Source: Selenomonas sp. TAMA-11512 (lineage in GTDB: Bacteria; Bacillota; Negativicutes; Selenomonadales; Selenomonadaceae). From it: a stretch of 64,000 nucleotides of DNA. The notes below the pieces were generated by a model, which worked only from the letters and a program-made list of their open reading frames with translations, had not been told where the DNA came from and did no database searches. A program made the position numbers and the translations under genes. Shown here piece after piece: positions 9,137 to 15,620 of the stretch (position 1 is its first letter; each line of letters starts with the position of its first letter). The stretch spans positions 124,001 to 188,000 of the forward strand of contig NZ_AP029018.1 in assembly GCF_037076525.1 (NCBI RefSeq), read 5' to 3'.

Positions 9137-9411
9137 CTAAGGAAACACGGATAAATGCAGCACAGCCATCTTGGCGTATCTTTTCCGCCCTCTCTGCGTC
9201 GGCAAATCCTCCACAGAGCACCACTCTGCGTTCGGTTTACCATGAAACCCCAAGAGGTCAAACCGAAGGAGCAGACCGATTGGTTAGGTTTCTGTAAGGG
9301 CGGAGCGCACAATGTCCGCAAAGCGGACGTTTGTACGTATAGCTTGCCTCCTTGACAGAACGAAAAATCTACACCAATCTGACAAACTTCATTTTATCAG
9401 CGTTTCCCTAA
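9137..9411. mobile_element. MITE-like element with ~19-bp terminal inverted repeats
   Basis: The left end CTAAGGAAACACGGATAAA is an imperfect inverted repeat of the right end TTTATCAGCGTTTCCCTAAG, 275 bases apart. No transposase is encoded. The interior carries one copy of the repeat also present at 39.4 and 41.2 kb. No clear target duplication is visible. It sits between a likely promoter (9470-9498) and the AICAR formyltransferase start. Confidence 0.5.
9237..9343 (-). repeat. dispersed repeat, copy A
   Basis: Reverse complement of a ~107-base sequence also found at 41161-41272 and, more degraded, at 39409-39512. All contain ACAAACGTCC-CTTTG, AATCGGTCTGC-CCTTCGG and a closing TGGTAAA. GTCCGCTTTGCGGAC forms a small hairpin. 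Confidence 0.8.
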
Positions 9412-9469
9412 GGGAGTGAGGTGCGGGTCGCTGGGCAAGCCGCACGGAATCAAACATATACATAATTAT

Positions 9470-9498
9470 AGCATACATGGATGACGCAGGCTTGTAAA
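9470..9498 (-). promoter_or_regulatory. candidate promoter for the AICAR formyltransferase gene
   Basis: Minus-strand TTTACA, 17-base spacer, TATGCT. Transcription would run through the MITE-like element before reaching the start codon at 9117. Confidence 0.45.
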
Positions 9499-9504
9499 AT
9501 ATTT

Positions 9505-9656
9505 GGTTTTTACCGCACAGGAGGTAAAAAGCGGTCGATGTATTGCGCGGGTGCTCTGTCTCTGCCGAAAGCGCGCATCGGCAAAGCGTCAGCCGCACGC
9601 TGTTTGTCCGCATATATGCGAAAAGGGAGCGACTCGATGCCGGGTCGTCTTTTTTC
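9505..9656 (+). other. structured intergenic segment, unassigned
   Basis: Stem-forming blocks follow each other: TTTTTACC/GGTAAAAA (overlapping ACCGC/GCGGT, mutually exclusive), TGCCGA/TCGGCA, and GACTCG-ATGC-CGGGTC followed by GTCTTTTTT, which looks like an intrinsic terminator at about 9629-9653. No coding content is convincing. It may be a small RNA or an attenuator; I do not recognise a known class. Confidence 0.3.
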
Positions 9657-9736
9657 ATTTGCATCTCTTTGCGCTAGGATAGACGTGCGCAACATATTTG
9701 AGAAGCCGGCTTCTCACTGAAGGAAAGGTGAGAAGA

Positions 9737-10369
9737 ATGAAACGTGAATATCCCAGACATAAGATCTCGACCGAAGCGCTCGTCGCCCTCGCCCAGCTCG
9801 GCAACAAGCCCGCGCTGGAGACGCTGTGCGTGCGATTCTGCGCGCTGCTCCACAAGGCATCTCGACAGAACTACCTCCGTACGATGGAAGAAGATGCGTA
9901 TCAGACCGTGTCGGAATCGTTTCTGAAGGCGGTGCGGGACTATGACTTCTCTCGCGGCACGCCGTTTGAGGGATACGTCAAGCGAAAGGTCTACGGCGAT
10001 CTTCTGACGTGGTTTCGATCCGTGCGCCGTCGCTGGGACAGGGAGGTCACGCCGTCCGCCACCGAGTCGGGCGAGGACTTCTTTGATCTCGTGGAAGGTG
10101 ATGCTTCACCCGAGGCGAGTGTCGTTCTGCGGGAGAGCCTGCGGCAGGCGATTGCCGTGCTCACGGAGAGGGAGCGGCGCATCCTGCAGCTGCTCTATGT
10201 GGAGGGGCGCACGCTCAAAGAGGTGTCCGCAGCCGTCGCGCTCTCCGTCAAGGGCGTATTCTCCGCGCGGACGAGAATCCTGAAGAAGCTGCGTAACGTG
10301 ATGGAAGCGGGAGAGCGGGCGTGCCTGTCCGCAGCACCCGGACAGGCGGCAGCTCCGGCTCCTGTATAG
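9737..10369 (+). CDS. sigma-70-family RNA polymerase sigma factor
   Basis: A 210-residue protein with sigma region 2 (about residues 15-95; YQTVSESFLKAVRDYDFSRGTPFEGYVKRKVYGD) and region 4 (about 130-185; LTERERRILQLLYVEGRTLKEVSAAVALSVKGV), with no region 3 between them, so it resembles ECF/SigH-like factors. The tail is Ala/Pro-rich. The start at 9737 sits behind AGGAAAGGTGAG; a longer version from 9698 lacks this. No anti-sigma gene is adjacent. The next gene, 92 bases downstream with its own promoter, encodes a ComK-like protein, so a role in a developmental or competence-like programme is possible but unproven. Confidence 0.8.
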   Translation: MKREYPRHKISTEALVALAQLGNKPALETLCVRFCALLHKASRQNYLRTMEEDAYQTVSESFLKAVRDYDFSRGTPFEGYVKRKVYGDLLTWFRSVRRRWDREVTPSATESGEDFFDLVEGDASPEASVVLRESLRQAIAVLTERERRILQLLYVEGRTLKEVSAAVALSVKGVFSARTRILKKLRNVMEAGERACLSAAPGQAAAPAPV

Positions 10370-10387
10370 GAGGGGAATGAATGGATG

Positions 10388-10416
10388 TTGCAAAATCCGA
10401 ACGTATATGCTATATT
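10388..10416 (+). promoter_or_regulatory. promoter upstream of the ComK-like gene
   Basis: TTGCAA, exactly 17 bases, TATATT. It lies in the gap between the sigma-factor stop and the start at 10461, whose AGGAGG is at about 10449-10454. Confidence 0.55.
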
Positions 10417-10460
10417 ATTTCAGAACAAATGTTTTAATACTATAAGCAGGAGGTTTTGTC

Positions 10461-11003
10461 ATGAGAAAAGCTTTGGTTAGTGAGATGCTGCCCGAGGACG
10501 GGCGAATTACGGCGATACTGCCGGCGTATACGGAGAAGGGGGACGCGACGCGCATCCTGCTCTCGACGGGAGAGGAGGTTCTGCTTGCCGTGCGGACAAA
10601 GCGCGCCCTTGAGCTGCTCGCGGCGCGTCACTGCCAAAGCCTGGAACTCCTTCGACGATGGGGGCGGCGGCACGTCAACGGGATGAACGGCCTCGCTCTC
10701 GCGATGGCTCCAGAGCTGGTGCTGCTCCCTCTGCGTGTGCGCGCGCCGCGCGTACGCGGAGACGCGACGCTCGGCTTTATCAATGTCGCCCTCGGCGAGG
10801 TGCGGCTTCGACCGGTGGAGATGGGAACGGAGCTTATCCTGCCGACGGGGCAGCCGATCCGCAGCCTCTGGCAGGCGGCGACGGTGCGGCGTCATTTGCT
10901 GTCGGCACGTCTTCTCGCCCATCAGAGAGAAGCCGAAGCGGCCGCCGTGTTTTTCCGCCGATTCCGGGGGATGTTCGTGGACGGCAGGAGAGAGAATGCA
11001 TGA
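10461..11003 (+). CDS. ComK-like protein (putative competence transcription factor family)
   Basis: A 180-residue protein that I align by eye with ComK. Shared features in order are an N-terminal ITAILP strand, a central Cys followed by paired Arg (RHCQSLELLRRWGRR), a hydrophobic ELVLLPLRVRAPRVRG segment, a GFINVALGEV segment, then LPTGQPI and a closing QAATVRRHLLSARLL helix. ComK is the master activator of competence genes in Bacillus, binding AT-rich DNA. Similarity is low, so the name is a hypothesis. The gene follows a sigma-factor gene and precedes a kinase-like gene, all on the plus strand. A short inverted repeat overlaps its stop codon. Confidence 0.45.
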   Translation: MRKALVSEMLPEDGRITAILPAYTEKGDATRILLSTGEEVLLAVRTKRALELLAARHCQSLELLRRWGRRHVNGMNGLALAMAPELVLLPLRVRAPRVRGDATLGFINVALGEVRLRPVEMGTELILPTGQPIRSLWQAATVRRHLLSARLLAHQREAEAAAVFFRRFRGMFVDGRRENA

Positions 11004-11126
11004 CAATTCTCTCTCTATTTGATATAATAAGTATGCAATAGAGGGGACTGCGTCCTCCGTGTCTCATCCGAAAGGGGAGACAAGGGAATCCGACACTTCG
11101 TACGGTAGGATAGTGAGGTGAGCGAG

Positions 11127-11936
11127 ATGAGCGAATTACATGAGGTGAGAACGGCGGAACGCATCGAGCGTGTCGAGCATGAACTCGCGGCGCACGGGAC
11201 GGAGCGGATCTTCTCGTTTTTCGATGAGGAGTCGAATCGCACGGTCTATGTCAAGCAGGCAGAGCCTGTGCACAACGCGGCATGGCTGCGATTTTCCCGC
11301 TGGGCGACCATTACGCTGGGGCTCGGCATCCTGCAGCCGGGCGCGGATCCCGACGGGGAGAAAGCGCTTCGCTTGGAGGCGGGCCGTCTCCGACGTCTGC
11401 AGGATCGCGGCATCTCGGTCCCCGAGGTCTACGCGGCGGGGTACAACTGGATCGCGCTCTATGACGCGGGAGAGAACGCGGCGGTCTGCATCCGGAAGGA
11501 TGTGTGCTCCTATGAGGAGAAGCGTCGGCTGATCGTCGCGGCGGCGGAAAACCTCGCGTCCCTTCACTCGATGGGGCTGCATCACGGTCGTCCGCACCTC
11601 AAGGATATGCTGTGGGACGGAGAGACGATCTCGCTCCTCGACTTTGAGGACGGATACCTGATTGATGTGGCGCGGGAAAAGCGCATCATGCGCGATCTCC
11701 TGCTGTTTCTGCAGAGCATCTACAAGGAAGCGGCGGAGGCGGGAAAGGACTGTGGCCCGGAGCTTGCGCAGCTCGCGTTCTCGACGTACGCGGCGAAGGA
11801 GACGTACTACGCGTCGTACGCGAAAAAGTACTTCGGCGATCTCTCCGTGCTGTATCTGCTGCTCGGCATCCTGCGCTGCGCGGGGTCGGATCTCGAGAGC
11901 GTATATCAGACACTGAAGCTGTTTCGGCAGGCATAA
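11127..11936 (+). CDS. protein-kinase-fold protein, InaA/Kdo-kinase-like
   Basis: A 269-residue protein with features of the atypical kinase fold used by lipopolysaccharide (Kdo/heptose) kinases: an N-terminal VYVKQAEP strand with the putative ATP-anchoring Lys near residue 48, ALRLEAGRLRRLQDRGISVPEVYA (helix plus strand typical of the group), a loop HHGRPHLKDMLWDG replacing the canonical HGDLHPGN, and LLDFEDG as the metal-binding DFG equivalent. The usual Asp of the catalytic loop is missing (GRPH in place of GDLH), so activity is uncertain. The start at 11127 follows GAGGTGAGCGAG; GTG at 11118 is an alternative. The substrate is unknown. Confidence 0.6.
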   Translation: MSELHEVRTAERIERVEHELAAHGTERIFSFFDEESNRTVYVKQAEPVHNAAWLRFSRWATITLGLGILQPGADPDGEKALRLEAGRLRRLQDRGISVPEVYAAGYNWIALYDAGENAAVCIRKDVCSYEEKRRLIVAAAENLASLHSMGLHHGRPHLKDMLWDGETISLLDFEDGYLIDVAREKRIMRDLLLFLQSIYKEAAEAGKDCGPELAQLAFSTYAAKETYYASYAKKYFGDLSVLYLLLGILRCAGSDLESVYQTLKLFRQA

Positions 11937-12053
11937 GGTGATGGCTGCGGCGTCCTCGCGGGGTGTCCCGCATTTTTGTGAAACAGCCGGTCTGCCCGCG
12001 TCGCTCGGCGCCGTGCGCTTGCAAGGGATAGTATAGGAAAAACGCATATATTT

Positions 12054-12101
12054 AGCCCCGGTACGTTCCCCATGACGGGAAAGGTGCCGGGGCTCTTTTT
12101 G
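12054..12101 (+). terminator. intrinsic terminator between convergent genes
   Basis: AGCCCCGGTAC and GTGCCGGGGCT form a stem of about 11 bp followed by CTTTTTG. It ends the kinase-like gene on the plus strand and may also serve the convergent exonuclease gene. Confidence 0.8.
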
Positions 12102-12106
12102 TCGTC

Positions 12107-12793
12107 CTATTTCTTCCAGAGCGGGAGGACATCCCTGCCGTCCTGGGGCTTGTAGGTGATGCGCGTGATGGCCTCGTGCGGCTTCGGCGCGCCGAACTTC
12201 GGATTGTAGCCGAATATGTCGACGTAGCTGATGAGATCGGGCTTCTCGCGCTCCATGGCGTCGAGGACGGCGACGGTCGCCTTCGCGTCATCCGTGGCGC
12301 GATGGGAGTTCTCCTCGTCGACGCCGTACGCCCCGATCGCGTCGATCAGCTTGTGCGGATAGGGCCGCCGGTCGCGGTATACGGTCAGGGCATCGAGGAA
12401 GTGGGCGCGGCGCAGGCAGATGTCGAGGCGGAAGCTCTTCAGGAAATGGTACAGAAAGAGGAGGTCAAACTGCGCGTTGTAGGCGACGATGAGTGTGCGG
12501 TCGCCGGAGAGCTGCGCGGCAATGTGCTCCGCCGCGTGCTTTTTGTCGACGCCTTCGCTTGTCAGCTGCGCATCGGTGATGCCCGTAAGCTCGACGATCT
12601 TCGGGGGGAGGCGCTTGCCCTTCGAGAGGCGGATGAGGAGATTGAGGTCGGTCGTGTCCTTCGTGGAGACAGCCCCCTTTTGGAGGCGGACGCCGCCGTA
12701 TTCGATGATCTCCTCGGAAAACGCGGAGAAGCCGGTCGTTTCGGTATCCAGGGTGACGATGTTGTCGAAGTGATGAAACAGTGAATTCAGCAT
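12107..12793 (-). CDS. DnaQ-type 3'-5' exonuclease (polymerase III epsilon-like)
   Basis: A 228-residue DEDD-superfamily exonuclease. Exo I is NIVTLDTETTGF (the DxE pair near residue 16), Exo II is LIVAYNAQFDLLFL, and Exo III is SHRATDDAKATVAVLDAM, giving the DEDDh arrangement (His and Asp five residues apart). Size and lack of polymerase or helicase domains fit a free epsilon-like proofreading or repair nuclease, not PolC. The start at 12793 has GGGAG. It lies downstream of gltX-tRNA-Glu but beyond a strong terminator, so it is probably a separate unit. Confidence 0.85.
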   Translation of the reverse strand: MLNSLFHHFDNIVTLDTETTGFSAFSEEIIEYGGVRLQKGAVSTKDTTDLNLLIRLSKGKRLPPKIVELTGITDAQLTSEGVDKKHAAEHIAAQLSGDRTLIVAYNAQFDLLFLYHFLKSFRLDICLRRAHFLDALTVYRDRRPYPHKLIDAIGAYGVDEENSHRATDDAKATVAVLDAMEREKPDLISYVDIFGYNPKFGAPKPHEAITRITYKPQDGRDVLPLWKK

Positions 12794-14665: not shown

Positions 14666-14765
14666 CAGGAAATAGAGGATGAATGGAGAAATAAGTATAT
14701 ACTGAACAATTTTGCGAAAACATACGGTATGCACGCTGCTCTTGATTGGTTAGGGGGGCATTAAA

Positions 14766-15620
14766 ATGGCAGAGCAAATCGATCTCTCGAGAGATCCGCG
14801 CATCCACTTGCTGACGCGCAAGATAGGCGCAATTTTCTTTCACTACCATGTCCGGGAAGATGTCATGGATTTTTCCATTGTGCGGGAGGGGTCAAAGCCG
14901 CGCCGCATAGAGGAGTTTCGACGCCGTCTGAACGGGGATCTTCGAGGTATGGTGCATCCCGATTTTCTGGAGGGTCTGTCGGCATATTTCCTCGGGCAGA
15001 CGATGGGGAGGGAGCGCTTCCTTCTCGATATGGGAAAAACGCCGACGGGCAAGTATTCGTGGTACACGTTCGTCATTGAGCGGGAGACCGATGCGGGCGG
15101 CCATGTCACGGGCGTTCAGGGGGTCTGTTGGAACACGGAGAATATCTCCGGAAAGCAGGAGCGCAAGGGGAGCTTCCGATCGGAAAGGGACGCGGTTACG
15201 GGCACGGCGAACGAAGCCGGTCTCATGCGCATCCTGGACAGCCATCTGTCGGGGCCCGGGAAGAATGATCAGAATGCGGTCATCCTCATCCGGATAAACA
15301 ACTTCAAGCAGTGTGAGCGTTCTGCCGGACGTCGGGTGTCGGACGCTCTGCTCATCGATCTGTCGAAATACATCGGTGAGTATTTCCTCCCGGGAGATCG
15401 CCTGGCGCATCTGGGCAGCGCGTGCTTTGCGGTCTTCGTGCGGGGCGTGGAGAATCGTGAACACATCACGGCGATGGCGGACAACCTAGCCTTCAAGCTG
15501 TCTTCCCCGAGCGACCGCTTCGGCAGGTATCGGCTGGAGATATCGACGTCGGTTGCATGGTTCCCGGATGACAGCAGACGCGGCGGCGAGCTGCTGACGA
15601 TTGCCAAGGGCAGGCTGTAA
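14766..15620 (+). CDS. GGDEF-derived signalling protein lacking the catalytic motif
   Basis: A 284-residue protein. The N-terminal half (about 1-140) looks like a PAS-type sensor (GKYSWYTFVIERETDAGGHVTGVQGVCWN). The second half follows the diguanylate cyclase fold: DAVTGTANEAGL for the usual D-LTGL-NR-L, then VILIRINNFKQ for the first strand with the metal-binding Asp replaced, RRVSDALLIDLSKYI, and LAHLGSACFAVF where active enzymes have R-GGDEF. The GGDEF signature is therefore gone, and the protein is probably a non-catalytic sensor or c-di-GMP/partner-binding module. It is divergent from gltX and read alone. Confidence 0.65.
   Translation: MAEQIDLSRDPRIHLLTRKIGAIFFHYHVREDVMDFSIVREGSKPRRIEEFRRRLNGDLRGMVHPDFLEGLSAYFLGQTMGRERFLLDMGKTPTGKYSWYTFVIERETDAGGHVTGVQGVCWNTENISGKQERKGSFRSERDAVTGTANEAGLMRILDSHLSGPGKNDQNAVILIRINNFKQCERSAGRRVSDALLIDLSKYIGEYFLPGDRLAHLGSACFAVFVRGVENREHITAMADNLAFKLSSPSDRFGRYRLEISTSVAWFPDDSRRGGELLTIAKGRL

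Follow-up and report, generated by a model that had tools for sequence, protein, structure and literature searches.

Two questions are raised by this locus: whether the second of three neighbouring genes, whose product the first-pass annotation had likened to ComK from the order of its motifs, is truly related to that regulator, and what its position beside a sigma factor gene signifies. ComK switches on DNA uptake in Bacillus, where it activates the DNA-uptake genes and is itself controlled by MecA-ClpCP. The window (the whole stretch of 64,000 nucleotides analysed, G000:C1:124001-188000) comes from the 2.59-Mb single-contig genome of Selenomonas sp. TAMA-11512, a member of the Negativicutes, the class referred to throughout. 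Full-text searches of open-licence PMC papers, covering Negativicutes, Selenomonas, Clostridia, LytTR and Veillonella competence, found no paper describing a ComK relative or such a regulator in the class. A 2017 paper demonstrated that Veillonella parvula, including strain SKV38, is naturally transformable via a pilus-type locus, and described this as a first for the family; a term search finds neither comK nor sigma anywhere in its main text (PMC5397411). A further paper mentions comK a single time, as a loner gene of a detection model, and Negativicutes likewise a single time, in another place (PMC6668835). The reading that we prefer, at somewhat better than even confidence, is that the ComK-like protein belongs to the ComK superfamily and acts with the adjacent sigma factor as a two-gene transcription module.

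Layout of the locus

The three plus-strand ORFs lie where the first-pass annotation had placed them, and the promoter that it had assigned to the ComK-like gene is present as well (Table 1). Overall, the scan detected four promoter-like sites in 9300-12200, against 0.7 per shuffle; the third gene probably has a promoter of its own, because the best site of the scan is ATGACA-17-TATAAT ahead of that gene.

Table 1. Features of the sigma/ComK-like locus and one further site, in window positions
Feature	Position	Strand	Remarks
Sigma-70 family factor gene, 210 aa, regions 2 and 4	9737-10369	+	Pfam and NCBIfam matches; best match to profile A7 in its own genome
Promoter-like TTGCAA-17-TATATT, TG ahead of the second hexamer	10388-10416	+	5' of the ComK-like gene
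ComK-like gene, 180 aa	10461-11003	+	Member of an uncharacterised family, assigned by sequence to the ComK superfamily as a distant branch
Terminator-like hairpin, weak T tail	10987-11016	+	At the 3' end of the ComK-like gene; four such sites in the region versus 2.2 expected
Promoter-like ATGACA-17-TATAAT, 11/12	11000-11028	+	Best site of the scan; probably for the kinase-like gene
Kdo/WaaP-Bud32-like kinase gene, ATG start	11127-11936	+	Alternative GTG start at 11118; neighbour outside the conserved module
Sigma-H-type site	14667-14692		About 73 bases before a diguanylate-cyclase-like GGDEF gene (14766-15620)

The third gene narrowly passes the model of the Kdo/WaaP kinases (PF06293, 22.1 bits versus a cut-off of 21.3), its Bud32-like matches remaining below their cut-offs, and a sequence search of the PDB yielded no relative. 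Its catalytic loop had been described as changed: the HGRP loop was correctly seen, but it does not look aberrant. The same HGRP-LKD-LWDG-DFE arrangement is shared with a Rhizobium relative (HGRPNLKDILWDG...FIDFE), and the loop thus looks typical of the family to which the kinase belongs. A kinase homologue at E <= 1e-3 was found in none of the 40 loci around ComK-like relatives, and the third gene is therefore unlinked to the other two elsewhere. In view of this absence and the separate promoter-like site, a three-gene operon was rejected, and the single block into which the three genes had been gathered is not supported; the kinase is a bystander, an ordinary neighbour of the sigma/ComK-like pair.

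Distant kinship with ComK

The 180 amino acid ComK-like protein has no Pfam match at E <= 10 and no NCBIfam match, and a comparison with the PDB by sequence gave no relative, the one match being to a designed protein (E 0.14). Homologues at E <= 0.01 occur in 60 of 151 genomes of the same family, and at the level of the class a 21-member family profile has matches in 99 of 250 genomes and a 38-member profile in 92 of 200, nearly always in single copy. Relatives with named records are from Sporomusa, Pelosinus, Sporomusaceae and Selenomonadales.

When the family profiles A1 and A3 were compared with five ComK proteins using hhalign, probabilities of 80% (A1) and 94% (A3, at about 10% identity) were obtained; with 60 ComKs they were 95.0 (A1, E 4e-8) and 95.6 (A3, E 1e-8), the alignment extending over 144 columns, which is the whole ComK core. 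The reversed ComK profile gave 0.1% and 0.4%, and 30 column shuffles (A3) gave at most 1.5%. An HMM was also built from ComK alone, that is, from 59 retrieved ComKs together with that of B. subtilis, leaving out both L113-L118 and the intermediates L109-L112, L116 and L163; of the 1710 ORFs in 41 loci, those at ranks 1-15 were all family members (E 4e-8 at best), and the best non-member had an E of 0.07. Not all 41 family members score with this HMM, and the window protein itself reached -1.2 bits. In the reverse search, the family HMM gave the intermediates 75-118 bits and some ComKs E values of 2e-5 to 0.02. The relation to ComK is thus well supported at the sequence level as one that runs via the family rather than via the window protein alone, and the resemblance first noticed from motif order has, through profile searches in both directions and the shuffled and reversed controls, proved to be beyond chance.

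It could be argued that the resemblance is one of analogy, in which a LytTR/FlbD-like beta fold was arrived at without shared descent. An identity of 10% in the hhalign alignment, the lead of LytTR domains among structural matches (see below) and weak FlbD matches (PF06289, best 0.0027, in L067) are in its favour, but whole-core collinearity, near-zero values for reversed and shuffled profiles, two-way HMM recovery and intermediates that exceed the curated ComK cut-off make this explanation very improbable. The weak FlbD similarity, seen in L067 and L112, falls in the C-terminal half of these ComK-like proteins.

As to common descent with ComK, the protein is best called a ComK-superfamily relative on its sequence, and not a PF06338 member, because the window protein has no PF06338 match and PF06338 is absent from the 11 families that a scan of 21 members listed, while the intermediates L109-L112, which are from other lineages, pass the cut-off in hmmscan (24.3-30.9 bits versus 22.3). 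Among five members from the class, L067 alone matches PF06338, with an E of 0.011. The likeness to ComK of B. subtilis and other Bacilli thus consists of similar size, conserved blocks that follow one another in the same order over some 140 residues, and two-way profile similarity; the class members differ in having only about one residue in ten in common with ComK and in falling below Pfam detection, and also in lacking K-box enrichment specific to the 5-base spacing and in having a partner sigma gene adjacent in the window and in many relatives.

Some PF06338 matches were rejected. The one in G040 (L001) is spurious, as it overlaps an opposite-strand region that reads by eye as argJ/argC, and the true family member of that genome is located elsewhere. 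L113-L118, some of which are above the cut-off, lie inside ORFs reading as DegT-type aminotransferases; the PF06338 model is likely to yield false positives of this kind in genome searches. Viral contigs yielded nothing related to the window protein or to B. subtilis ComK, and a Listeria query recovered three pieces of Listeria ComK from them.

Predicted structure

The AlphaFold model of the window protein, made with seven homologues in the alignment, has a pLDDT of 68.8 and exceeds 80 in blocks of either half. The top three VIA-align matches are all LytTR domains, those of pneumococcal ComE (6.4), Bacillus cereus LytTR (6.3) and AgrA (6.1), the next row being at 4.2; these matches span 90-103 residues with Z below 8, and so may reflect just a common arrangement. 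Foldseek gave no match at E <= 0.001 in the PDB (best 0.26) or in BFVD, no LytTR match by Pfam sequence search was found in the window protein (E <= 10) or among the families of the 21 members, and no solved ComK chain was found with the five-ComK profile. The 180 amino acid protein differs from ComE and AgrA in having no receiver domain. It may nevertheless reasonably be supposed from the model that the ComK-like protein binds DNA through a LytTR-like fold. The BFVD matches of the model include flagellar and swarming motility proteins (2.1 A over 67 columns).

The partner sigma factor

The sigma gene matches PF04545 (region 4) at 1e-9, above the cut-off, PF04542 (region 2) at 7e-4, below it, and NCBIfam TIGR02937 at 66 bits, again above the cut-off; its description as a two-region sigma factor, with regions 2 and 4, is therefore sound. 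Neither curated SigH equivalog model recognises it (TIGR02859, 40.5 versus 294.8; NF006147, 49 versus 212). Profile A7 for the partner sigma, which was built partly from neighbours of ComK-like genes, gives the window sigma 220 bits versus 102 for the next in the same genome, and orthologues outside the set used in building A7 (e.g., those of G049, G076 and G114) still stand out. Judged by these scores, the partner sigma is a distinct orthologue.

Of 47 loci around family members, 30 contain a homologue of the window sigma with at least 173 bits. The co-occurrence of the two genes was counted over 200 genomes of the class, 91 of which have a ComK-like gene (a 92nd, G292, with an E of 0.002, was left out) and 117 the sigma (E <= 1e-30): 85 have both, 6 the ComK-like gene only, 32 the sigma only and 77 neither (Fisher 6e-22, uncorrected for descent). 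The two genes of the 85 pairs are on the same contig in 68 cases, within 5 kb in 53 and within 1 kb in 21; the two ComK-like genes of G293 each lie about 0.3 kb from a partner sigma of their own. Orientation varies, being tandem in the window, convergent in L094 and divergent in L066 and L099. Because all three arrangements occur, the order of the sigma and ComK-like genes is not conserved; what is kept instead is their association, and the weight originally placed on a sigma factor beside a ComK-like gene is borne out by co-occurrence and linkage. Outside the class, a sigma gene directly follows the ComK-like gene of G531 (L109), which passes the Pfam cut-off, and among 50 ComK or intermediate loci, six of them false PF06338 matches, a sigma gene is within the fetched stretch at L109, L108, L119 and a Priestia plasmid locus.

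Sequence comparison thus establishes a collinear relation to the whole ComK core, conservation in the class, and an association with one orthologous sigma that shows in strong co-occurrence and in frequent linkage. We regard as real, at the level of genome sequence, a ComK-superfamily branch that is class-wide, has hitherto gone unassigned and has a sigma factor as its genomic partner.

Link to DNA uptake

ComEA is found in 171 of the 200 class genomes at E <= 1e-12. It is present in 90 of the 91 genomes with a ComK-like gene versus 81 of the 109 others (p 1e-7, uncorrected for descent), the sole exception being G237, which is 88% complete.

The motif used to find sigma-H-type sites was the B. 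subtilis sigma-H consensus, and start codons were set by a rule of our own, which missed 2 of 30 loci. Sites scoring at least 20 precede comEA in 14 of 28 cases versus 28 of 305 background genes, and pilB in 7 of 20; at the threshold used, they precede the ComK-like gene in none of 46 cases and the sigma gene in none of 30. In the window genome, a full-score match lies 71 bases ahead of comEA, and another upstream of the gene cluster leading to the pilus operon. These sites favour control of DNA uptake in the class by a sigma factor of the sigma-H type. Of 39 genomes that have the pair, 21 show a site at -50 to -110 from comEA, versus 12 of 37 without it (p 0.069; of 80 loci, 2 truncated ones were dropped and 2 others are sigma-only). 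As regards a promoter motif shared by com genes, for which a check had been proposed, comEA often has a sigma-H-type promoter, but this motif is broad and not restricted to genomes that carry the pair.

At several f1 comEA sites, the match is inflated by overlap with what appears to be the 3' arm of an upstream terminator (GGCAGGAG). In several comEA upstream regions, e.g., those of L209, L218, L320 and L325, the putative -35 falls on the 3' arm of a hairpin resembling the terminator of the preceding gene. In Sporomusa-like genomes (L333, L335, L336 and L219), an AT-rich inverted repeat, TTTGTAA-N6-TTACAAA, was seen by eye just 5' of the comEA -35, and is possibly an operator.

Across the window genome, AGGAWWW-N14/15-GAAWW has 89 matches versus 18 for the reversed pattern, making it about five times commoner, and in the stretches examined 41 sites have a following ORF, many of these ORFs having other functions. 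The 89 versus 18 count suggests a broad sigma-H-like regulon in this genome. Similar sites also stand before genes that, by eye, seem to encode an HD-GYP protein and a diadenylate cyclase, and the same 26-base site occurs twice (L349 and G000:C1:1103552), probably within a repeated element.

The motif being broad and not pair-specific, the idea that sigma-H-type promoters prove comEA to be driven by the partner sigma was rejected. This breadth and the weak tie to the pair point to canonical SigH for comEA, and an explanation that we consider possible, though appreciably short of even probability, is that canonical SigH drives the com genes in the class and that the sigma/ComK-like pair is upstream or unrelated. 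The enrichment of sites before comEA, the full-score site in the window genome and the abundance of the motif before many unrelated genes all fit such an arrangement, as do sigma matches in 41 of 41 genomes, most of which have several besides the partner; however, many comEA upstream regions have only a weak site or none, and the same motif may be read by the partner sigma.

K-boxes, which are pairs of AAAA-N5-TTTT, are found at ComK target promoters. Single K-boxes exceeded shuffles, but spacers of 6 and 7 were equally common, and this spacer control removed the signal, so that the K-box was rejected as the target of the family; K-box pairs were at chance level. The whole comparison assumes that comEA is a target and the site unchanged. 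That target-site searches gave nothing tying the ComK-like protein to the com genes would be expected if a true ComK-superfamily regulator, paired with its sigma, controlled functions other than uptake, for instance those of surface structures, polysaccharide or prophage. Nucleotide-sugar or polysaccharide-like ORFs, read by eye from their N-termini, do recur near the pair in some loci, and the regulons of ComK and SigH in S. aureus extend past the transformation genes (PMC10182052). On the other hand, the distribution of comEA and the fact that the known relatives are competence regulators argue against a role outside uptake, which we therefore consider rather unlikely.

Discussion

Under our preferred reading of a ComK-superfamily protein and a sigma factor acting as a module, the ComK-like protein would bind DNA, as the resemblance of its model to LytTR domains suggests, and activate transcription, and the sigma factor would make either the ComK-like protein or its targets conditional. 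The targets would include DNA-uptake genes, namely comEA-comEC and the type IV pilus/comG-like operon. From the genomic evidence, a competence switch role for the pair is plausible; the analysis gave no support for the alternative first suggested, a stress switch.

This arrangement would parallel SigH and ComK1 of Staphylococcus aureus, both of which are essential for the transformation genes (PMC10182052); SigH is likewise described as driving comE and comG (PMC3486894). In both cases, a secondary sigma and a ComK protein occur together, and the DNA-uptake genes of the class often have a sigma-H-type motif. The class differs in that the two genes are frequently neighbours and are co-inherited, and in that the motif is not pair-specific.

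More broadly, and with rather less confidence than an even chance would warrant, we suggest that there may be a class-wide competence switch consisting of a dedicated sigma and a ComK-superfamily activator of LytTR-like fold, that the superfamily may be far older and wider in the phylum than is annotated, and that the sigma-ComK partnership may be ancient, with SigH and ComK1 of S. aureus its descendant. At the level of the present comparisons, the ComK superfamily appears to reach well beyond the Bacilli, in proteins without a current Pfam or NCBIfam assignment, and the sigma/ComK-like pair provides a specific two-gene candidate for the regulators of DNA uptake in the class.
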